Shown piece by piece: positions 24,945-61,949 of a stretch of 64,000 nt of DNA (position 1 is the stretch's first letter; every line of letters starts with the position of its first letter). Source of the stretch: Tetrahymena elliotti 4EA (taxonomy: Eukaryota; Ciliophora; Oligohymenophorea; Hymenostomatida; Tetrahymenidae); the NCBI GenBank assembly GCA_000231825.2, contig JH720309.1, forward strand, positions 85,381 through 149,380, in the 5' to 3' direction. Below the pieces are notes generated by a model. That model worked only from the letters and a program-made list of their open reading frames with translations, was not told the DNA's origin and searched no databases. The position numbers and the translations under genes are program-made.

Positions 24945-26462
24945 TCAATTTATATAAAGATCAAAATGTGAAAATTAAGACTAAAAAGTTAGTTGATCTT
25001 ATATACATTTTTGGTAAGCTTTCAATTAAAGTAACTCTCTGAAGTTGTCAAACTTCTCCAATAATATAAATTTTATGTTCATTTAGTTAATTTCTATGCA
25101 ATTTTCTTGAATTTTTTATATTTACTTCTTATTATTTATTTATTTATGTTTCTATTATTTCTTTAAGAGATATTTTAATCTATTAAAAATGCAATTTATA
25201 AAATTTCTCTTTCATAGTTGCATCATTTTTTACAATCAAAACTAATTGTATTGAAGAATTCTTAAAGAGACTGCTTTTTTTAGTTTAACAAATAACAACA
25301 AGCAGCTATTTATGAATTGATTTTTGATTTGAAGCATAAGTAAGTATGTTTTTGTATACTTAATCTATAATTTTCAATTGTCTAACTAAATCTTTAATAA
25401 GAACAAAGAATATTTCCTAATTTGTAATAGTAGTAACCTTCTTCTGGATTAAGTTCAATACACCTGTTCATATACTTAACTGCGTTTATTTCATCTTAAG
25501 CTTCAAGAACTATATCTGCGAATGCACTAAAATTTTTTGAAAATTCAGGATCAATTATAATACCTTCTTTAAAAACTTGAATTGCTTCTTCTTTTTTACC
25601 TTTTTTGAATAAAAATTATCCCTATTCCTGACGACTAAGCTCTTCTAGTCTAAATATTATATGATTTTTTATAATTTTCTTCTTCTATCTACAAATCTCC
25701 AATTTATTTATAATACATAGCCATATTATGAAGAATTATATGATTATTTGGACAAAGTTCCTCAGCTTCAAGGTACAATTTATTTATTTCATCATTTTAT
25801 ATATTTTATACATTTTTTTCTTTCTTAATAAGTGCCAAATTATTTGCTATTCCTGGATATTTTGGATTAATATTATATCATTATTAAATCCATTTTTCTG
25901 CTTCATCCATCTTTTCATTATCATAATAAACACATGATAAAGTATTTGCAATATCTTATTTGTACTCATCTAATATTTCATAAGCCTTTTCTAAATCAGA
26001 AATGTAAGATAGATTCTTGTCTTCATCCCTGAATGTTTTGATAAACTAATACAAACCTTTTCCAAACAAGTAGACTCCTTCTTAATAAGATTCACAATTG
26101 AAATATGAATCTCTATAACTTCCACACACTTTCAAAAGAGTTTCATTTAAAACTTCTGACTTTGATAAATTTATGTACCACACCTAGAGTAAACATAAAG
26201 TCAAAGTAATTACATCAATAGAATCCATCTTATCTCCCTTTACTTATTAAATTTCTTCAATCAGTTTTTTTAATGATTAATTTGCCTATTTAGATACTCC
26301 TAGCTCAAATAAGCTCAAAGTTTTGTACAACTAAAGAGTTTAATGATAGACAAATGTTCTATCTTAATCATATTTATCTACTTTATCAATACAATCTTAA
26401 AGTTGACTATTAGAGTAATATTATTTAATTTATTTTATTAAATCTTGCTCAAAAATGTCCAT
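24945..26462 (-). pseudogene. TPR-repeat protein gene, copy A, broken by TGA and a frameshift
   Basis: This is homologous over its length to the intact paralogue at 39368-40879. The frame from ATG 26462 is open for 194 codons, then meets TGA at 25880-25878, where the intact copies have TTA or CTA (Leu). About 240 nt further on, a 2-nt deletion near 25630 shifts the frame relative to copy C. The remaining C-terminal TPR coding sequence is otherwise readable to TGA at 24947-24945. From about 25549 to 26490 it is nearly identical to copy C (30162-31105), whereas the 3' part is clearly diverged: a gene-conversion pattern. Either a 194-residue truncated protein is made or the copy is dead. Confidence 0.8.
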
Positions 26463-26790: not shown

Positions 26791-28301
26791 TCAATCTAAG
26801 TAGAGATCAAAATGTTAGAATTAAGATTTAAAGGTCAGTTGATCTTATATTTATTGTTGATAAGCTTTTATTTAAAGAAACTCTCTTAAATTGTCCAATT
26901 TCTACAATAGCATAAGTTTTATGTTCATATTAGTTAATTCCTCTGCAATTTAATAGAATTTTTTAATAGCTGGTTCTTATTACTTATTTACTATTTCTAT
27001 TGTTTCTTCAAGCGAAATATGATTTTAGTTTATTAATATTACAATACATTCAATTTCTCCTTCATTGCTGTAATTTTTACTATCTAAACTAATAGTTTTG
27101 AAGAATTCCACAAGAGATTAATATGTTTCACCTAATTAATAATAACAAACAGCTATTTATGAATTGCTTTTTGCTTTGATATGTAAGTGGCAATTTTTTT
27201 GAATAGCTAATCTAAAATTTTCAATGGCCTAGCTATATCTTTGATGAGAATAGAATATTTATCCTAGTTTGTAATAGCAGTAGCCTTCTTCTGGATTAAG
27301 TTCAATGCATTTATTCATATACTTAACTGCATTTATTTCATCTTAATTTTCTTCAGCTACTTCTGCCAATGTATTATAAATTTCTAAAATTTCAGGATCT
27401 ATTTTTATGCCTTCTTCAAATACTTCAATTGCTTCTTCTTTTTTTTGTTTTGTAAGTAAAAATTATCCATATCCATGACAAGACTAAGCTCTTCTAGGCT
27501 AAATATTATATGATTTTTTATAATATTCTTCTTCTTTTTACAAATCTCCTATTTATTAATAATAATCAGCCAAATTATGAAGAATTATATGATTATTTGG
27601 ACAAATTTAATCAGCTTCATGGTATAATTTTTTTACATCTTCATTATTTATATCTTAACGAGACTTAAAAACTGCCAAATTATTTGCTATTCCTGGATAC
27701 TTTGGATTCATATTGTATAATAATTACCCCCATTTTATTGCTTCATCTTCCTTCTCCTATTCATGATAAATCCATGCTAAAAAGTTAGCAATTTCTTATT
27801 TATACTCATCCAATAGCTCATAAGCCTTTTCTAAATCAGAAATAAAAAAAGATCCTTTACTTCTTCCCTATTTGTCTTGATAAACTAATAAATTCCTTTT
27901 CCAAACAAATAGACTCCTTCTTAATAAGATTCATAATTTAAATATGAATCTCTATAACTTTCACATGCTTTCAAAAGTTTTTCATTTAAAACTTCTGATT
28001 TTGATAAATTTATATACAAAACCTAAAGCAAACATAAAGTCAAAATAATTACATCAATAGAGTCTATCTTATCTCCTTTTACTTTTTAGGCTTCTTCAAT
28101 CATTATTTTCAAACATTAATTAGCCTACTTAAATATTCCAAGTTCAAATAAACTCAAAGTTTTGTACAGCTAAAGAGTTTAGTGACAGATAAATGTTCTA
28201 TCTTAATCATGTTTATCTACTTTATCTATACATTCTTAGAGCTGACTGTTTGAGTAATATTACTTTACTTGTTTTATTAAATCTTAATCTAAATTATTCA
28301 T
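26791..28301 (-). pseudogene. TPR-repeat protein gene, copy B, one frameshift in an A7 run
   Basis: ATG 28301 starts MNNLDQDLIKQ, homologous to the intact paralogue. At the A7 run 27844-27850 the copy is one base short compared with the intact gene; the frame then reaches TGA at 27710-27708, giving 197 residues. With the frame corrected it is readable to TGA 26793-26791 with normal TPR sequence, including AVKYMNKCIELNPEEGYCYY. A homopolymer miscount in the assembly is a real alternative to a pseudogene. It does not carry the TGA of copies A and C. Confidence 0.75.
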
Positions 28302-29556: not shown

Positions 29557-31077
29557 TCAATTTATATAAAGATCAAAATGTTAAAATTAAGACTAAAAAG
29601 TTAGTTGATCTTATATATATTTTTGGTAAGCCTTCATTGAAATTAACTCTCTTAAATTGTCAAGCTTCTCCAATAACATAAATTTTATGTACATATTTGT
29701 TACCACCTATGCAATTTTCTTAAATTTTTTAATATTTATTTCTTATTATTTATTTATTATTTCTATTGTTTCTTCAAGTAATATTTTATTTTAATTTATT
29801 AAAAATACAATTGAATTGATTTCTTTTGCATAATTACATTTTTTACTATCTATACTCATAGTATTGAAGAATTCTTCAAGAGATTTTTTTTTTTAGTTTA
29901 ATTAATAATAACAAACAGCTATTTATTCATTAATTTTTACTTTAAAGCTTAAGTAAGTATGCTTTAGCAGGGCTAATCTAAAATATTCTAGAGCTTAGAT
30001 ATATCTTTAATAAGAATAAAATATACTTCCTAATTTATAATATTAGTAGCTTTCTTCTGGATTAAGTTCAATACACTTCTTCATATACTTAATTGCATTT
30101 ATTTCATCTTAAGCTTCATGAGCGATATCTGTCAATGCATTATAATTTTTAGAAAATTCTGGATCAATTATAATACCTTCTTTAAAAACTTGAATTGCTT
30201 CTTCTTTTTTACCTTTTTTGAATAAAAATTATCCATATTCATGACAAGACTAAGCTCTTCTAGGCTAAATATTATATGATTTTTTATAATATTCTTCTTC
30301 TCTCTACAAATCTCCAATTTATTTATAATACATAGCCATATTATGAAGAATTATATGATTATTTGGACAAAGTTCCTCAGCTTCAAGGTACAATTTATTT
30401 ATTTCATCATTTTATATATTTTATACATTTTTTTCTTTCTTAATAAGTGCCAAATTATTTGCTATTCCTGGATATTTTGGATTAATATCATATCATAATT
30501 AAATCCATTTTTCTGCTTCATCCATCTTTTCATTATCATAATAAACACATGATAAAGTATTTGCAATATCTTATTTGTACTCATCTAATATTTCATAAGC
30601 CTTTTCTAAATCAGAAATGTAAGATAGATTCTTGTCTTCATCCCTGAATGTTTTGATAAACTAATACAAACCTTTTCCAAACAAGTAGACTCCTTCTTAA
30701 TAAGATTCACAATTGAAATATGAATCTCTATAACTTCCACACACTTTCAAAAGAGTTTCATTTAAAACTTCTGACTTTGATAAATTTATGTACCACACCT
30801 AGAGTAAACATAAAGTCAAAGTAATTACATCAATAGAATCCATCTTATCTCCCTTTACTTATTAAATTTCTTCAATCAGTTTTTTTAATGATTAATTTGC
30901 CTATTTAGATACTCCTAGCTCAAATAAGCTCAAAGCTTTGTACAACTAAAGAGTTTAGTGACAGATAAATGTTCTATCTTAATCATATTTATCTACTTTA
31001 TCAATACAATCTTAAAGTTGACTATTAGAGTAATATTATTTTATTTATTTTATTAAATCTTACTCAAAATTGTCCAT
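29557..31077 (-). pseudogene. TPR-repeat protein gene, copy C, interrupted by TGA
   Basis: ATG 31077 opens 194 codons before TGA at 30495-30493, the same codon as in copy A. Beyond it the frame is intact to TGA 29559-29557 with ordinary TPR sequence, so one substitution separates it from a full-length protein of the intact paralogue's size. It is almost identical to copy A from its start to about 30162. Readthrough, a short functional N-terminal product, or a recent pseudogene are all possible; shared inheritance of the TGA by A and C points to one mutation spread by duplication or conversion. Confidence 0.8.
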
Positions 31078-39367: not shown

Positions 39368-40879
39368 TCAATCTAAGAATAGATCAAAATGCTAATATTA
39401 AGATTGAAATGTTAGGTGATCTTATATTTATTTTTTGTAAACTATTATTTAAAGAGTTTCTCTTAATTTATCTAATTTAAATAATAGCAACTATTTTATA
39501 TTTTTATCATTTAAATTCTTTGATATTTAATCAAAGTAGTGAACAGATTTTCCATATTATTTATTAATAACTTCTACTATTTCGTTTAGAGTTATGTAGT
39601 TGTTGTTTATTATTATTGAAATAGATTTGGCATCTGATTCATAGTCTTAATCACTACTTTCTATACTTAAAGTATTAAAGAATTCTTCAAGAGATTTTAA
39701 GAATTCATATAAATAATAAAAGCAAGTAGCTAAGTAAGAGTTGCTTTATGCTTTTATAATTTTGTAATTTGGCTTTTACATTGATAATTTGTAATATTTT
39801 ATTGCTTCTGTGTATTTTGAATAAGTTTATAATGTCTTAGCTAATCTAAAATATTCACATCCTTCTTCTGGGCTTAATTCAACGCACTTCTTCATATACT
39901 TAACTGCGTTTTCTTCATCTTATTCATCATTAGCTATGTCACCAAGCTCACTGTAATTATCTAAATATTCAGGGTCAATACTAATACCTTCATTAAATAT
40001 TTTATTTGCTTCTTCTTTTTAATTTTTTCGATATAAAATTCTACCATATTAAGCACAAGATTAAGCTGTTCTAGGTTAAATTTCATATGATCTTTTATAA
40101 TATTCTTCTTCTTTCTAATAATCTCCTAATTATCCATAATAATAAGCTATGTTATGAAGAACAACATGACAACTTGGACAGAGTAACACTGCTTCTTCAT
40201 ATAACTTAATTACTTCTTCACTTTAGATACTCTTTTCCTTCTTTATCATTGCCATAATAGTAGAAATTCCTGGGTATTTTGGATTTAAGCTGTATAGTTA
40301 TTATCCTAATTTTTCAGCTTCATCTAACCTTTTCTCCTAATGATAGATCCATGATAAAAAACAAATTATATCATTTTTGTACTCATCCAATAATTCGCAA
40401 GCTTTTTCTAAATCAGAAATTAGAGTAGGGTCCTTTTTTTCTTCCCTGTTTGTTTTAATAAACTAGTAAACTCCTCTACCTGACAAATAAACTCCTACTT
40501 CATATGACTCAGACATTATATTTTAGTCCCTATAATCTTCACATAATTTCATTAGATTTTCATTTATAATCTCTGATTTTGATACATTACTGTAATGCGT
40601 TTCAATTAAACACAGAACTTAGGTCATTACATCAATAGAATCAACTCTATTTCCCTTTAGCTTTTATCTTTCTTCTGTAATAGAGTTAAAATTTTAGTAA
40701 GCTTGCTTAAACAATCCAAGTTAAAAAAAACTCATTGTTTTGTACATTTAGAGAGTTTAATGGCAGATAATACTTCTATTTTAGTCTAGCCTATAAACAT
40801 TTCCTATACATTCAAAGAATAACTAGTTACTGTACTATTCCTTTACTTCTTTTATCAAATCTTTCTCAATACTGTTCAT
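39368..40879 (-). CDS. TPR-repeat protein, intact paralogue (copy D)
   Basis: A single frame, ATG 40879 to TGA 39370-39368, gives 503 residues. Amphipathic helix pairs in the C-terminal two thirds fit tetratricopeptide repeats, for example AVKYMKKCVELSPEEGCEYF and EEAVLLCPSCHVVLHNIAYY. TPR proteins are scaffolds that bind peptide ligands; the partner is unknown. It is the only undamaged member of the four copies in this window and shows that the TGA and frameshift of copies A-C are derived. No signal peptide or membrane segment is present. Confidence 0.85.
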
Positions 40880-41834
40880 TTCTACTTTACCTATTTAATT
40901 CAATTCTAAATTGAAATAATTAATACTAACTTTTTGATAAAAATCTTTAATTTGTTAATTGTTATTTCAATTAGATAATTAATCAATTTATATAATTATA
41001 TTTTACATCAGAAACCCAAGATTTGTTAGGAATATTTTCAAAATAAATTATTGGTCAGAACCGTTTTGATATTCTTCCAAAAAAAATATCTATTTCAAAA
41101 ATTCTTAGAATATAAATGATGTTTGACTAAGTATTATCTAAAGTATTTAAAACATATCCTACATTGATTATGAGCAAAAACCATCTTAACCACATAAAAA
41201 TAAGTGTTGAAAATTTAAAATTGAAGACTAGTGTGAGATTACATAATTGGAGGTAGATATTGCTAAAATAAGAGCTAAGTTTAGAAATCTCTATACCTAA
41301 CTAAAAATTTGTAAACAGTTCTTTTTAATTAGATTAAATACATATGAAAATTATAATGATGTTATTCACAAAAAATATATTTTTAAGAGGCCATTTTGAG
41401 AATTGTTAAAATATAAATAAATGATTGAAAATTAATTTCTTCTAAAAAAAAATAATCAATTTTGCTGGAAATCATAAAATTCAATGAAAGAAAATAACTA
41501 AATTCTAAGATTAAATTAAATTGCCCGAACTAAATTTTTACTTTTTTATTATTAATGATATTTGCAATCAAATAAAAAAAGTAACCTTAAGTAATCTCTC
41601 GAAAGCAATTAAAAAGCTTAAATAAATTATTTATTTGCAAAAATAAGTTAAAATAAAATGTTTGATTTGTAAAATTTTGAAAAAATAAATTCAACTTATA
41701 TTATATAATAATATTGATGCCGACTAGCACTTTTTTCTTTTTATATCTTTGTCTGTTTGTTTTCTTTTTGCTTGATAGGTTTGAATATTTGAATTTAATA
41801 AAGAGGGTGTTTTAGTTAAATTTACTGAGAAAAT
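40880..41834. other. AT-rich intergenic DNA
   Basis: Divergent spacer between the TPR gene (-) and the HOP2-like region (+). I see no gene in it. Confidence 0.5.
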
Positions 41835-54359: not shown

Positions 54360-57300
54360 ATGGAATAAATTAGCTAAAACCTTGAAGGATCTTTAGAAGC
54401 TAAAAACAGGCTTGCTTCCCACATTGAAAAAAGGGAAAAAGTAAAAGAGATGTATAGAAATAAGGGTGTCCAAATGCTTGATAAGCCTGAATTAGTTTGT
54501 AAAAGATTTTTAAATTTTTTTTTACAATAAAATATTGTTATAGTTACTTATTCTATTACTTATTACTATTAAAATAACTCATAAAAATAGTTACAAAAAT
54601 CAAACTATCAATTAATTAATTTACTATATATTTTCATGTTAAAATCAAATAAAATTCTCTTAATAAATAAAAGTTTCGAATATCTAAGAACCTAAGTTGA
54701 AACCTTAGTAATCGTTGATTTATTAGGCTATGAAAAATGAATTAATTTAAAAAGACTACTCTGATTTTAGGTTTTTAGGGCAAGGATAGTAAGGATTAGT
54801 TTTGTTAGCAAAAGATTCAAAAACTAACATGAGATATGCTATCAAAGGTGTTTAAGTTAGAGATCATCAAGGAAATCTTGACGAAAATCTTAATAATTAA
54901 GTGAAGCAAGAAGTTGATATACTCAAAAAATGTAGAGATTCTCCTTATGTAGTGAGTTTTTTAAATTCATTTGAAGGATAATAATTTAGCTTCTTAGTTC
55001 TTGCTGAGTGTTAGGGTAAAGAATAAAAACTTACTCAATTAACTTGATTTAAACTTTTTAATTCATCATATAATAATATAAAAAGGAACTCTCACTGAAA
55101 TCTTAGAAAGTAGTGAAAACAAAAGACTGAATGAAATATCTGCAATAAAATATGCTAAAGACATTGCTGAAGGTCTTTACTATATTCATTCTAAGAACTG
55201 CCTTGTTAATGATCTGAAAATGGACAATATCTTAATAGATTACAATGGAAATGCTGTTATTTGTAAATAATTACTTTCTCAAAGCAATATCGAAATTCAA
55301 AAAAATAAAACAGCTGATTTTGGGTTCGCAGATCATCTAAAAAATAAATCTGGTTATGCTATCAATTAATATGTATAAACACTTCTAATTACCCTTCTCA
55401 TTAGATATTCAAATAATACTAAAAATTTAAGATGGGAAATATCTTGTATCAAGCACCAGAGTGTTCTGATCCAGCTGATCCAATTATAGGTAAGGTTTAT
55501 TATGAAGAATATTAAAAACTAGGTGTTAAAGTGACTAGAGAACCAAGCAACAGAGTAAATGCTTAGTTTAAATTAATTAACATCATCTGATAATATTATT
55601 TTTATTTATTTAATTAGAGCGAAGCATTTTCTTTAGGTAATAAAAGAAAAAAATTAACTCTTTTACTTAGAATTATTTTTAAATAGGATATCTAATTTAT
55701 GCGCTAGTTTAAGGAGTAAATTGTAATTTAACACTTAATAAGCATAAACCATTGAACTATGATAATGAATTTAAAAATTTTCTTTATCACTAATGGATTT
55801 AATAAATTATTGATGGACTAACAAACTATATTCCTAGAAATAGATTGTCAATTAAAGAGGCTCTGATTATTTTAAAAGGTATTATTTCTTTTGAATTTTA
55901 GTTAGATGACATGCTTATTGAGATGATAGATGAAAACACATAACAGTTCACTAGTTCACTCAAAAAAGAAATTGAGTTTGTTTAAGAGTTATCAAATAAG
56001 TTCTATCCAATTATGTACTTGATATCATAAAATCTAGTATTTTATTTAACTTTTTAATAAAGTAAAAACTAGTAGAATTTGATTCAAGAGCTGAAAGAAG
56101 ACCATCAAAAAATAAAATATGTTGCTAAAAATTTTTTTTACTGAAAATATTTTTAACTTACCTAAAATATTTCATAAAATAGGAAGAAAAAATAGCTGAA
56201 TTATTGTCAATTAACCTTCGACTTAAATAAACAATCAGTGAATAAGAAGAAACAATATACATTTTGTTAGAATAATTATAAAAGAATTAGAATTAATCAA
56301 TTAATCTACCCTAGAAAACAAAGGACATAAACTAGAAGCAAACTGCATTAGAAGAAATTAAAAAATAAGAAAAGAAAGACGAATAACCCTAAAATAAAAG
56401 CAAACTGTAATTAAAAAATTTGTTTCAAAAAGAAACCAATACAAATATTATTTAAAAATAGGTATTTACTTTTCTTCGAAATTCAAAAAATTAACTAGTT
56501 TTAATTTAATAATATAAAAGAATGTAAATCAATTTGAAAAATTATTTATTCAATCAAAATTTACAATATTTAAAACCTAAATAATTCGCACAATATAGTA
56601 AAATCCTTCAAGAGTAAGAGTAGAGCATTAAATACTTTTTTTAGATATATCACAGCTCAAACATTCTTCTCTAATGATTTTTTTTTTTTTTTAAATTATC
56701 TAACCTAACTTACTTTATCATACAAAAAATATTTAAATTGTAATAAAAGGAAGTAAATAAATAACTTTAAACTAATGATCACCAACCAATTTCAAAATTC
56801 TTTTAGAGGGTCAAATATTTTTCTTTAAAATGATTTTATTCTAATATTTCTCGAATATAGATTGTAATATTTGGTAATTTCCTAAAAACTTACAACTAAA
56901 TCAACTTTTATGTTCAAAATAGTATGTAATCTTAATCATAAAATCCTCAAATTAACTTTCGCTTTAAAAATAGCTAGTAATTAATTAAAATTTTTGAATT
57001 ATTTTTTTGAGAAAATGCTTAATTAACTCTCAAATTAAAAATAGAAGGTAATAATAATATATCTTAAAATTCCTTTAGATGAGAGAGAGATAAATTTAAT
57101 TTCATATTCAAAAAAGAACGTAATTATATTTTAGAATCATGTTTAATGAGAAAGTGCTGAATTAACTTTCATTTTATATAATATAGCTTGTAAGAAATTA
57201 ACATTTTATAATGATTTTTAATTAGAAGATAATCAATTTTCATGCTCAAAATAGTTGGTAATTAATTAATTAATTGCAATTTTAGTAAGATTTTTGAAGA

Positions 57301-60081
57301 AAAAATGTTTAATTAATTAATTTTCATATTCAAAATAGCTAGTAATAAATTAATATTTTAGAATGATTTTTGAGATGAGAGATGAGAAAATGTTGAATTG
57401 ATTTTCATATTTAAAATAGCCAGTAATTAATAGTTAAGAATGATTGAAGAGGATTCTAATTTAACTTTTATATTTCAAAATAGGAAGTAATTAATTAAAA
57501 TGCTAGAATGATTTTTAATGAAGCTGAATTAAACTCTAAACAGTGGGTAAACTTTAATATTTTAGAATGATTTTTGATAAAAAAAATACTAATTTCATAT
57601 TTAAAATAGGATGTAATTAATATTAATAGTGATTTTGATGAGTTTATGCAGAATTAATTTTGATATTCAAAATAGGGAGTAATTAATTAATACTTTAGAA
57701 TAACTTTTAAAGAAAAAAATCTGAATTAATTTTCATATTTAAAATAGGAGGTTATTAATTAAAATTTTGAAGAAAATTGTGAATCAACAAACTAATTTTT
57801 TTATTCAAAATAGCTAGTAACTAATTAATATTTTAGAATAATTTTTATAAAAAATACTGAATTAACTTAGCTAACTAACTTTCTTATTCGAAATAGCGCG
57901 TAGATAATTAGCATTTTAGATTTATTTTTGATGCCAAAATGAAAAACTAATATTCTCATTTAATTTAGAGTGTAAAATTTTTACTAGAAGAGGGTGAATA
58001 AAATAATATATTTGAAAACAGATTGTAATAATTATTTTGAATGACAATTTATGAATATTTATTTAAATAATCAAACAGAGAGTAAATTTATTTCAAAACT
58101 TTTTTTATTCATAATTAATTTAATTTGTTAAGTTCTTATGAGAGAGTGTAAAAAATTTATCAAAATTGACTATTGAGAGTGAATTATACAATAATTTGAA
58201 TAGAATGTAAATATTCAATTTTGATTATGAAATCTCATTGAAATATAATTCTTTTTTGCTTCATAGTGGGTAAAATTTATTAATAATTATTTTTAATTTT
58301 AATTATTGATTTAAATTTAATTTAAATTTAGATTGTAAGTTTCTATACTTAATTAGCAAATAAACTCATAATAATTTTAACTAGAATGTAAATACAATTT
58401 TAATACAAAATAATCATGGGATCATTCAAATTAAAACAGCAAGTAAATATTATACCTGAATAAAAGAAGATAAATTAAAATAAATAACTATATCAGACCG
58501 TATTTTCAGAATGTCTATATTGCAAGAGATTAAATAATTTATTATTAAAAGCGAAGATTGGTAAAATAGCATAGAATAAATTTAGCAGGCATAAAAAAAT
58601 TAATTAATTAATCCATTATAATAGGGAGTAATTAAGTTAGTTTATTGATTTTCAAAAGTTTAAAATTAAATTTTAATAATTTATTTAACAAAAATTAAAT
58701 TAAATTGAAAAAGAGGATAGTAAATTTTTCAGTTAGGAAAAGTCGTAGATGTAATTAACTAAAATTGAATTAAATATTAGGATGTAAATAATTTTATACG
58801 CTCTTTTAAAAAAATATTTATTATTAATATAAATCTAGGATGTAATGAATGATTTTTACTTAACCTATTTAATATCTAAAATTTAAATTGAATATGTATT
58901 AGGGTGTATTCATTTCTTTAAGATTAATTATATTGATATTGTTGATGAATAATTTATTCATTAACTTCTGAAATGAAATAGATTGTAACCTTTATATTTT
59001 CTGATCAACCCAACATATATTCAAGTTCTTACCTACTAAATAGCTAGTTAACAATTTATTTCTTGATTGATAGCTTATTTATCTATTTTTAAATAGCTAG
59101 TAATACTTTTCAATTATTTTACTTAACAAGAAGAAGAAATATGGTAAATAGGCTGTAAAGTTTTAACTTTAAAAATGATTCTCAAACATATTATTTAACA
59201 ATCTTTTAGCTAGTAAAATTATTTGACCATATTTATAAGAATATTCTAAAATATTTTTTATTTTTAAATAAGCAATTTGTAATTTTAAAAATTTAGTTTT
59301 AAGAAAAAATTAATAAAATGAATGATATAAATAGTAAGAAGTAAAGATTTATTTATCAATATTTTATACCATCTCTCTCTCTCGAATATAAACTCCATAG
59401 ACAGTAACTTTTTGAATTAAACTTTACAATGTTACAGTTTGTTTGTGCTAGATAATTTATCAAATTTAATAAAATAGAATGTAAATATTTTTTTATTTTG
59501 ATCTAAAAAATTTAAATTATTGACCTTTAAATAGTGGGTAATATTTTTACGAAGTGAGACTACATAATAATAATTATTGCTTTTCATTTATAATAAGCAA
59601 GTAACAGCTTTTACTACTCTAATATTATATATAATCCATACCTTTTCTTTTGATAGAATGTAATTTTAAAAAAAAATTTTTACAAATCTTTAAATATATT
59701 ACTTATTAAAGTAGTTAGTAATATTACAAAATTATTTATTTGGTTCTCAATATGTTTCCATACTTCTAACAGACTGTAAATTTTCGCATTTATTTGAAAA
59801 AAATTTTAATAATTTTAATGTTTATATCAATCAGTGGGTAACTTGATATAGCTCAGAAACATTCTTCAATAATTTGTTGTATTCTTAAAAGCATGTAACT
59901 TTTTATAAATATTTAAATTTTCCAATTTACTTTTAAATTAAAAATAGGATGTAACATTTATAATCATTATAGAAGGATGTATCATAATATGCTAAAAAAT
60001 AATTAAATTAAGGGTGTAATTAAAATTTTTAAATGATTTTTGATATAAAAATCTGAATTATTTTTATATTGAAAATAGTGA
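54360..60081 (+). CDS. Ser/Thr-type protein kinase whose C-terminus is encoded by an array of 3-nt exons
   Basis: Ordinary exons 54360-54498, 54674-55015, 55086-55262, 55314-55372, 55432-55554, 55618-55636, 55687-56120 and 56183-56461 give 524 in-frame residues. The kinase core has the glycine loop LGQGQQG (after DYSDFRF), the AIK lysine (YAIKGVQV), a catalytic loop VNDLKMDN in place of HRDxKxxN (catalytic Asp and Asn kept, His and Arg lost), DFG as ISDFGFAD, and an activation end GNILYQAPEC. A coiled-coil, K/Q/E-rich tail follows (INLRLKQTISEQEETIYILL). From 56462 the gene continues as 54 mini-exons, mostly single codons, to a TGA micro-exon at 60079-60081, adding 71 residues. A run of sense codons with a mixed composition through so many junctions, all in phase 0, argues for a real coding tail. 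Exon 8 could instead be near the true end, with the array untranslated. Intron 55373-55431 was chosen over a 32-nt alternative because it restores the normal kinase motif. Confidence 0.75.
56926..57968 (+). repeat. Block 1 of homologous introns in the array
   Basis: Consecutive introns here are recognisably copies of one sequence of about 65 nt. It begins GTAATTAATTAATATTTTAG, passes through AATGATTTTTGATGAGAAAA and TGCTGAATTAACTTTCATAT, and ends TTCAAAATAG. The intron body is conserved from unit to unit while the 3 bases between the AG and GT change every time (CTA, AAG, AAC, CTT, TTG, CTA, CCA, GAA, TGG, GAT, GGA, GAG, CTA, CGC). A simple satellite would also conserve those bases. Confidence 0.85.
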
Positions 60082-61161
60082 GTAATTAGTTAACGTTTTA
60101 GAATTATTTGATAATAAAATGCTGAATTTATTTTCATTTTCAAAACAGAAGGTAATTAATTTATCTTTTGATAATAAAATGCTGAATTGATTAACTTTCT
60201 TATTTGAAATAGCAAGTAATTTATTAATAGCAAAGAATGATTTTTATGAGAAAGTACTGAATTATATTATTATAATAGTGAGTAATTAGTTAACAGTTTT
60301 TTATGATTTTTGATCTGAAAATGATGAATCGATTTTCATTTTCAAAATAGCTAGTAATTAATAAATATTTTAGAATTGCTCTTCATGAGAAAAAGCTGAA
60401 TTAACTTCTTATTTAAAATAGCGGGTGATTAATATATTTTAGAATTATTTTTGATGAGAAAAGTGCTGAATTGACTTTCAATATTCAAATAGAATGTAAT
60501 AGATATTTTAGATAGAATGATAAAATTGTGAATTAACTTTCTTATTCAAATAAATAGTTTGTATTTAATTAATATTATTTTTGATGAGAAATGCTGAATT
60601 AAACTTTGATATCAAAAATAGCGAGTAATTAATTAAATAATTTTAGATTAAAAAATACTGAATTAACTTTTTTTTTTAAAAAAAAGTGAGTAATTAAAAA
60701 ATATTTTAGAATGATTTTCAAAGAGAAAATGCTGAATTAAATATCGTATTTAAAATAGCTAGTAATTAATTAAATAATTTGAGGGGGAAAAAGTCTAAAT
60801 AAACTTTGAAATTTAATATAGAACGTAATTAATTAAAATTTTAGAATTACTTTTCATCAAGAAATGCTGTATTAACTTTCTTATTTATAATAGAGGGTAA
60901 TTAATACATATTTTAGAATGATATCCAAGAAAATACTAAAAGAACAACTTTATTCAAAATAGAATGTAATATAAGGATTTTAGACGAGAAGGCGCTGAAT
61001 TAACTTTCATATTTGAAATATTTCTAAATAGGATGTAATTTAAAACTGTTTTAGATAATAAAGTACTGATAATTTTTTTTTTCAAAATAGACAGTAATTA
61101 GCTAACATTTTACAAAATTTTTTGAGAACAATATGCTGAATTGGTTTCATATTTAAAATAG
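60016..61161 (+). repeat. Block 2 of homologous introns in the array
   Basis: The same intron family as block 1 reappears after about 2 kb of more diverged introns. Units again share TTTTAGAATGATTTTTGATG, GCTGAATTAACTTTCATATT and CAAAATAG before the 3-nt exon. This indicates a segmental duplication inside the array or repeated multiplication of the same intron. Confidence 0.8.
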
Positions 61162-61949
61162 AAAGTAATTTATAATATTCTAATAAGAATATGTCCGTCC
61201 AATTAATATTTTTTTAAAAAATAGATAGTAAAATATTTTAGATAGAAAGAATTATGAATAGAAAATAAAGACTAAAAAATTGAAAATAGTGAGTAATATT
61301 TTAAAAGTTTAAATAAAAAAATATTTAATAATAAACATTCTTAAAAAATAGGTGGTAACTATATTAGAGAAAATAAACAAATAGATGAAAAATAATTTTA
61401 ATGTTGAACTAAAGCGAGTAATATTTTGGAGATTATAATAAGAATTTTATCAAAACTTATAAAAAGATAGTAAAATATTTGAAATGCTTTAAGAAGAAAT
61501 TATTCTCATTACAAATTTATGAAATTAGTGAGTAAGAGTTTTCAAATTGTTTGTTGATAAAATTGCAAACAAAATAACCTATTAAATCTCTAAATAAGAT
61601 TGTAAAATATTTGAGTGATTTAAATAGAATATTTAAAAATTGTTTCTAAAATTAGAAAGTAATTTTTTAGATCATTTTGGATTCAAAAAAGAAAAATTTA
61701 ATTAAAACAGCTGGTAATCACACAATACAATTTAGAATTAAATAATTTAAATAATAACTACTATATACTTATTCAGAAAGTAAAAATAATTTGTATTAGC
61801 AACAAATTTTCTTTAAGAATTTGAATAAAATAAATAGGGTAAATTTTGAGAGAGCAAGATTTAACAATAATAAATTAATGTATTAGAAAGTAAAATCAAA
61901 CCACTTCTAATCATCATCAAATATTTATTTTTTTTTATTTTTAAAAAAG
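60082..61949 (+). other. Second part of the micro-exon array, beyond the first TGA micro-exon
   Basis: The AG|NNN|GT pattern continues for 27 units: AAG 60149; CAA 60213; TGA 60279; CTA 60351; CGG 60422; AAT 60493; TTT 60558; CGA 60622; TGA 60687; CTA 60759; AAC 60822; AGG 60894; AAT 60963; GAT 61032; ACA 61091; AAA 61162; ATA 61225; TGA 61290; GTG 61352; CGA 61415; ATA 61467; TGA 61529; ATT 61599; AAA 61656; CTG 61711; AAA 61777; AAA 61887. A possible 1-nt exon lies at 61838. The last intron ends at 61949 and the next bases are TGA. Four of these 27 units are TGA, against none among the 71 codons before 60079, so this part is not under the same coding constraint if read as one frame. It may be untranslated, a decaying extension, or a set of alternative ends. 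Confidence 0.75.

Follow-up and report, generated by a model that had tools for sequence, protein, structure and literature searches.

Micro-exon genes (MEGs) of Schistosoma mansoni contain 10–20 exons, mostly of 15 bp and within a span of 6–81 bp by the text and 3–81 bp by the abstract, together with introns of 0.1–5 kb, and they encode secreted proteins, as given in the excerpt of PMC10526429. In Tetrahymena, leucine-rich-repeat (LRR) genes are built of arrays of 90-bp exons, which are supported by RNA-seq and in some cases are fused to kinase domains (excerpt of PMC6564038). The APC11 gene of Arabidopsis carries an exon of a single nucleotide, which was tested in plants, and intron definition with stepwise removal was proposed for it (excerpt of PMC4674806).

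The locus considered here lies in a 64-kb stretch of DNA from Tetrahymena elliotti 4EA, called the window; coordinates of the locus are positions in this window, W denotes its array, and labels such as C3A or C23 denote other array stretches of the genome. An array of sites with strict 3-nt spacing is present at the end of a protein kinase gene, and its existence is confirmed. Like the MEGs, as far as the excerpt of PMC10526429 describes them, the array has very short exons, mostly of 3n length, whose skipping keeps the frame and which are hard for automatic annotation. It differs from the MEGs in its 80 modelled exons, of which 75 measure 3 nt, in the shortness of its introns (about 60 nt) and in codons that are split between exons. 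The many consecutive very short 3n exons that mark a MEG are thus found in it, but coding mostly in short exons with long introns is not, as the kinase is encoded in ordinary exons and the median intron measures 61 nt. The LRR genes share with the array the genus, the tandem units of a fixed 3n exon, the phase-2 introns and a proposed growth by unit duplication; in contrast to their 90-bp LRR exons (excerpt of PMC6564038), the array exons are of 3–15 nt, encode no LRR (no LRR family was found in the Pfam scan of the model protein) and are predicted from sequence. From APC11 it is clear that an exon may be only a few letters long and still be spliced, although that case concerns one exon in one gene, whereas the array has dozens of predicted exons consecutively; the ratchet points of recursive splicing resemble the array in their adjoining 3′ and 5′ splice signals and stepwise removal (excerpt of PMC4674806). 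No report of arrays of 3-nt exons was found among the papers listed from open-licence PubMed Central, the scope of the search. Micro-exon genes as such are already known; dozens of 3-nt exons with split codons are, as far as found, a new form.

The best explanation predicts that the array belongs to the coding part of the kinase gene: about 80 exons, of which 75 measure 3 nt, are likely joined in phase 2 by ordinary GT-AG splicing. Almost all codons of the 89-residue C-terminal tail would then be put together from two exons. The probability of this reading is estimated at roughly 0.87. Phase 2 means here that a codon takes nucleotides 2–3 of one exon and nucleotide 1 of the next, and TGA is the only stop (table 6) throughout. 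The parts of the locus are as follows.

54360..56018, forward strand: kinase-coding exons, the first from the ATG at 54360, later exon ends approximate (PF00069, tblastn, open spans)
56183..56406, forward strand: coiled-coil-like exon preceding the array, best donor 56407 (GTAATT), phase 2 (open frame)
56521..61713, forward strand: array of 80 modelled exons, phase 2 (spacing, decode, final model)
56599..56613, forward strand: 15-nt array exon (decode and final model)
58552..58560, forward strand: 9-nt array exon (decode and final model)
58714..58719, forward strand: 6-nt array exon (decode and final model)
59273..59340, forward strand: 6-nt exons 59273–59278 and 59335–59340 with the intervening intron (decode and final model)
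60016..61351, forward strand: introns similar to one another and also to the introns of 56524–58021 (pair scores, tandem repeats)
61352..61777, forward strand: conserved end, GTG, CGA, ATA, TGA, ATT, AAA, CTG and the A at 61777

The gene upstream of the array is a protein kinase, as the sequence-only reading had already stated. The model protein matches PF00069 over residues 70–342 (E=3.3e-33, 115.6 bits against a cut-off of 31.7), and related kinases match the window at 54360–56300 by tblastn. The relatives found are 40 proteins: 29 from T. thermophila SB210 (best identity 70%), 3 from other Tetrahymena and 8 distant kinases. The phase-2 tail of W reads LIKILQEKGFIQRTFCYQNGMESYAVLEVIGLIKPEDWEGQMMVFYQLYNFKKQIGKIQLGMMVESNDYGIFDDQTGMIQKYECEYELN-stop. 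The spliced tail gave no Pfam family over the cut-off, and a search of the tail region against 5.8 billion proteins returned 18 candidates, none with E<=10.

The strict spacing is the most direct evidence for the array. On the forward strand of 56462–61949, AG-N(k)-GTAA has 69 occurrences at k=3 and 0–6 at any other k between 0 and 15; the reverse strand of the same region has a single one at k=3. The motif TAGNNNGTAA has 62 occurrences when both strands of the window are counted, compared with 10.2 (sd 2.8) in 100 dinucleotide-preserving shuffles of the window, none of which reached 62. A splice-site dynamic programme without a length-3 term gave 72 exons, 64 of them of 3 nt, the others being three of 6 nt and one each of 9, 15, 31, 33 and 1 nt; the programme is not wholly independent, as its site models were trained on AG-N3-GTA and its exon cost climbs slightly with length. 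The final array model, partly hand-picked from the computed results, consists of 80 exons from 56521 to 61713, with a total of 267 nt and 89 residues, and the order of exons around 56521–56752 is its least certain stretch. All 80 exons have lengths of 3n, within a range of 3–15 nt, and each is preceded by AG and followed by GT, the sites having been chosen that way; the donor is GTAA in 72 and another GT donor in 8. Modelled introns measure 48–226 nt, with a median of 61 nt (n=79, the exon at 56599 left out). The spacing of the units therefore fits short ciliate introns, with AG and GT flanks at every unit, as in an array of GT-AG exons and introns. Two further claims of the sequence-only reading are borne out by these counts, namely that dozens of consecutive 3-nt exons carry intron signals on both sides and that insert lengths are multiples of three; the latter also holds for 402 of 433 exons in an unconstrained decode over 12 loci.

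The exon pieces of W contain 33.7% G+C, compared with 18.7% in the array region and 28.5% in the kinase codons. Retention of a single modelled intron (n=79) would shift the frame in 46 cases and introduce an in-frame TGA in 15, with neither effect in 18. Introns of about 60 nt are likely recognised singly, as units, by intron definition, and adjacent ones would likely be removed in succession, because two spliceosomes would hardly fit around a 3-nt exon.

The frame of the tail was assessed in five arrays (W, C3A, C3B, C23 and C18). TGA occurs 15 times in phase 0, 14 times in phase 1 and once, in C23, in phase 2; the open reading would therefore be phase 2, with each codon split over two exons. 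When the exon order was shuffled, phase 2 contained 7.8 TGA on average, and none of 2000 shuffles had as few as one. Codon-usage log-odds, trained on 658 kinase codons, summed to −17.3 for phase 2, as against −105.6 for phase 0 and −92.9 for phase 1, and shuffling the exon order in phase 2 lowered them to −64.2 (sd 9.5), with 0 of 2000 shuffles as high as observed. In W alone, the open phase-2 frame runs from the coiled-coil exon, whose end is at 56406, to a TGA that CTG (61711–61713) and the A at 61777 form together. The lack of a stop is weak evidence in this single array, as 14% of the shuffles also have none; the codon usage of W in phase 2 was equalled by 2 of 2000 shuffles. The phase-0 and phase-1 readings were rejected on stops and codon usage.

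The predicted peptides of different arrays are alike in some cases. In 4 of 10 locus pairs, the similarity of the phase-2 peptides exceeded that of all 500 exon-order shuffles. The score of C3A and C3B is 194 in phase 2, with 170 and 160 in the other phases; C3B and C23 reach 87 versus 25.0 (sd 4.5) in shuffles, C3A and C23 reach 73 and W and C18 reach 48, the last two each above all 500 shuffles. For the other pairs, the shuffles that scored as well, out of 500, numbered 139 (W–C3A), 46 (W–C3B), 36 (W–C23), 7 (C3A–C18), 58 (C3B–C18) and 12 (C23–C18). Phase-2 peptides also align between loci with non-collinear introns, such as C3B and C23; filtered blastn of these two gave 7 short matches, and the 2 listed lie off the diagonal.

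A common end of the arrays was sought in 16 stretches as the series (CGA, TGA or CCT), ATA, (TGA or TGT), and 8 array ends were found, which read C-E-Y-E in six, C-L-Y-E in one and C-L-Y-V in one. Three features outside the scan pattern accompany them. First, the exon preceding the signature finishes in TG at all 8 ends. Second, an xTG exon follows three exons on at 7 of the 8. Third, the next site begins with A, giving TGA, at 6 of the 8 (W, C3A, C3B, C17b, C122 and C23). The end of C80 has no xTG and no stop at the expected place, and the C18 end has no A-starting next site nearby. Synonymous differences occur at the ends as TGC/TGT in C122 and GAA/GAG in C3A. The conserved end of W, 61352..61777, reads ..C-E-Y-E-L-N-stop in phase 2. 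A tail like that of C3A and C3B, with the end C-E-Y-E, was also observed in L050 (C23:704001-712000), where 74 exons were decoded and no kinase match occurs in the 2.2 kb fetched ahead of the array; this type of tail may be common to different genes.

One alternative is that the array is skipped entirely or for the most part, either because a far acceptor is used or because the units are stepping stones of recursive splicing in one long intron, so that the 3-nt pieces would rarely enter the mRNA. Very short exons are frequently skipped in other organisms (excerpt of PMC4674806), and the symmetric units would keep the frame. This explanation nevertheless leaves unaccounted for the coding statistics of the exons in one phase, their G+C content close to that of the kinase codons, the peptide likeness between loci and the stops at a common place, and it is judged improbable. 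Classical recursive splice sites, the ratchet points, leave no letters in the mRNA, unlike the array, which has 3 nt between its signals that read as protein.

The second alternative, about as improbable, is a decaying array, which was formerly coding and has lost its constraint in many copies, perhaps including W. The comparison of C3A with C3B bears on it from both sides. Sites of the form AGNNNGTR are kept in 60 of 66 cases, compared with 19 of 39 for pooled control motifs, and AG-N2-GTR, AG-N4-GTR and AG-N5-GTR do not occur in the C3A array. Identical exon letters number 52, 45 and 47 of 61, and the rest of the sequence is 82.0% identical, which means that the exons are no more conserved than the introns, as expected of decay. 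Codon positions 1 and 2 in phase 2 vary more than position 3, and this pattern, by itself, would suit phase 1 no less. Judged from this pair, the splice design is kept, and the putative peptide is fast-changing or little constrained. Eight donors of W that are not GTAA and the C80 end without a stop would also suit decay, whereas the kept splice sites and the phase-2 frame of W, which stays open through 80 exons until it stops at the common place, argue against it. Under the preferred reading of a spliced phase-2 tail, the tail would be a working part of the protein.

The third alternative, very improbable, retains the splicing of 3-nt exons and makes each of them a whole codon in phase 0, with a tail of about 63–71 residues and the TGA exon at 60079 as its stop. 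The sequence-only reading had proposed this form, with the preceding exon ending at 56461 and 71 sense codons before TGA. A donor at 56462 (score 2.2) would provide such a phase, and among the modelled exons ahead of 60079 none is TGA. The donor at 56407, however, scores 4.9, is in phase 2 and replaced 56462 as the entry to the array; it moves the probable end of the exon to 56406. In the three paralogs C80 (287998), C3A (1771251) and C3B (1780540), the last long open frame ahead of the array likewise has its best donor in phase 2, which makes 4 of the 4 kinase genes examined, all phases having been counted by hand from coordinates. Five of the 3-nt exons of W are TGA when read as whole codons, the codon-usage log-odds of W are −29.4 in phase 0 versus 5.5 in phase 2, and W and its paralogous arrays run beyond TGA exons to the common end. 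The list of phase-0 exons gives 63 codons before the TGA, and the array continues for a further 1.7 kb. When a decode was made to begin at 56462 in phase 0, without limits on exon length but with TGA excluded, its best path shifted to phase 2 before 56807 and remained there; it passed through an exon of 140 nt, which is probably an artefact.

The preference for phase 2 varies between loci. When 17 clusters were decoded in each phase, phase 2 was uniquely best in 4 (W, C3A, C3B and one in C18), tied for best in 9 and beaten in 4 (C1, C5c, C16 and C17b). The C17b cluster extends beyond its stop, which may explain the result there, and the arrays of C1 and C16 may use a phase other than 2. In these two contigs, the genes with the 3-nt exon arrays L031 (C1:449001-459000, reverse strand) and L041 (C16:847001-857000, forward strand) have no match to this kinase family, and phase 0 scores best in the arrays, with a lead of 5.1 and 1.7 units, respectively. 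From L031 and L041, the array class may not be tied to phase 2.

Arrays of this kind occur across the genome, which comprises 89.95 Mb in 134 contigs. Three sites in a row were found at least 326 times, versus 6 for the reversed pattern, and a stricter form 77 times on 17 contigs, versus 0 reversed, where 326 and 77 are counts of pattern matches and not of arrays. In all 16 stretches of 10 kb picked for a pattern match, k=3 is the commonest spacing (0–12) on the array strand, narrowly in L037 (6 vs 5), and k=6 is also elevated in many of the 16, not in all. The unconstrained decode of 13 loci gave chains in 12, and 332 of the 433 exons are of 3 nt. Kinase relatives lie upstream of the arrays of W, C80, C3A, C3B and C3d and in the C18 stretch (16 stretches, some analysed in part); the relative in C18, at 1238117–1239896, is not ahead of the compared C18 array at 1229203–1231661. 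In C5c, kinase matches are on the strand opposite to the array, and no kinase relative was found in the analysed stretches, some in part, of C1, C3a, C3b, C5a, C5b, C16, C17b, C20, C122 and C23. Since several array stretches lack a kinase match, such arrays are apparently not confined to genes of this kinase family. C80 represents kinase and array duplicated together, with 72.8% identity over 1640 aligned positions of the kinase region.

Such an array could hide from gene models, as is suggested by two of the 17 related proteins that were fetched. The C-terminus of the SB210 model P0005 fits unspliced TTTAG-AGG-GT, ATATAG-ATT-GTAATA and ATAG-CAT-GTAAA, and that of the SB210 model P0013 fits unspliced ATAG-CAT-GTAA, both readings being derived from protein, not DNA. 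At the corresponding place, C80 has the exons AGG, ATT and CAT. Both gene models are probably wrong at their ends.

The array may have grown by duplication of a unit composed of a 3-nt exon plus an intron, which would keep the frame because the units are symmetric. Introns within 60016–61351 have a pair score of 0.592 among themselves and 0.538 against the introns of 56524–58021, compared with 0.490 for shuffled letters; the introns of 56524–58021 are hardly alike among themselves (0.495). Parts of the W array contain tandem repeats with periods of 64–72 and 137–138 nt. Intron likeness and tandem repeats would fit growth by duplication of units or blocks. That these periods reflect nothing more than a non-coding tandem repeat whose unit carries AGNNNGTAA by chance is hardly credible, given the same sites in dissimilar sequence in the middle of the array and at other loci, the coding statistics, and the kinase gene that precedes the array, on its strand, at five other fetched places. 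Elsewhere in the window, the tandem unit TACATTTTATATATTTCA occurs in equal copy number at 25774–25816 and 30389–30431, 4.6 kb apart, perhaps as a duplicated stretch, and the open frames 26791–27930 and 39368–40966, both on the reverse strand, encode proteins that by eye are alike and may be TPR-like. A helicase gene of the window has, among the proteins found, at most 62% identity with T. malaccensis and 57% with T. utriculariae.

A wider possibility, tentative and rather doubtful, is a class of Tetrahymena genes with a domain that has an intron inside nearly every codon. Each unit would add one residue and could be duplicated, or skipped without a frameshift, since a 3-nt unit is symmetric. 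One locus could then yield a wide range of kinase tails, and the class would extend over many loci of the genome that stay hidden from ordinary gene models.

If RNA confirms the reading, about 80 successive splicing events would build one tail from exons too short for an exon signal, and the locus would offer a direct test of intron definition and of how small an exon can be. Correction would then be needed in gene models that run through such arrays, apparently the case in two T. thermophila models. The price of the division is about 5.4 kb of DNA for 267 coding nucleotides. A coding stretch would then be divisible until hardly any codon remains whole, with unit duplication as a plausible route.
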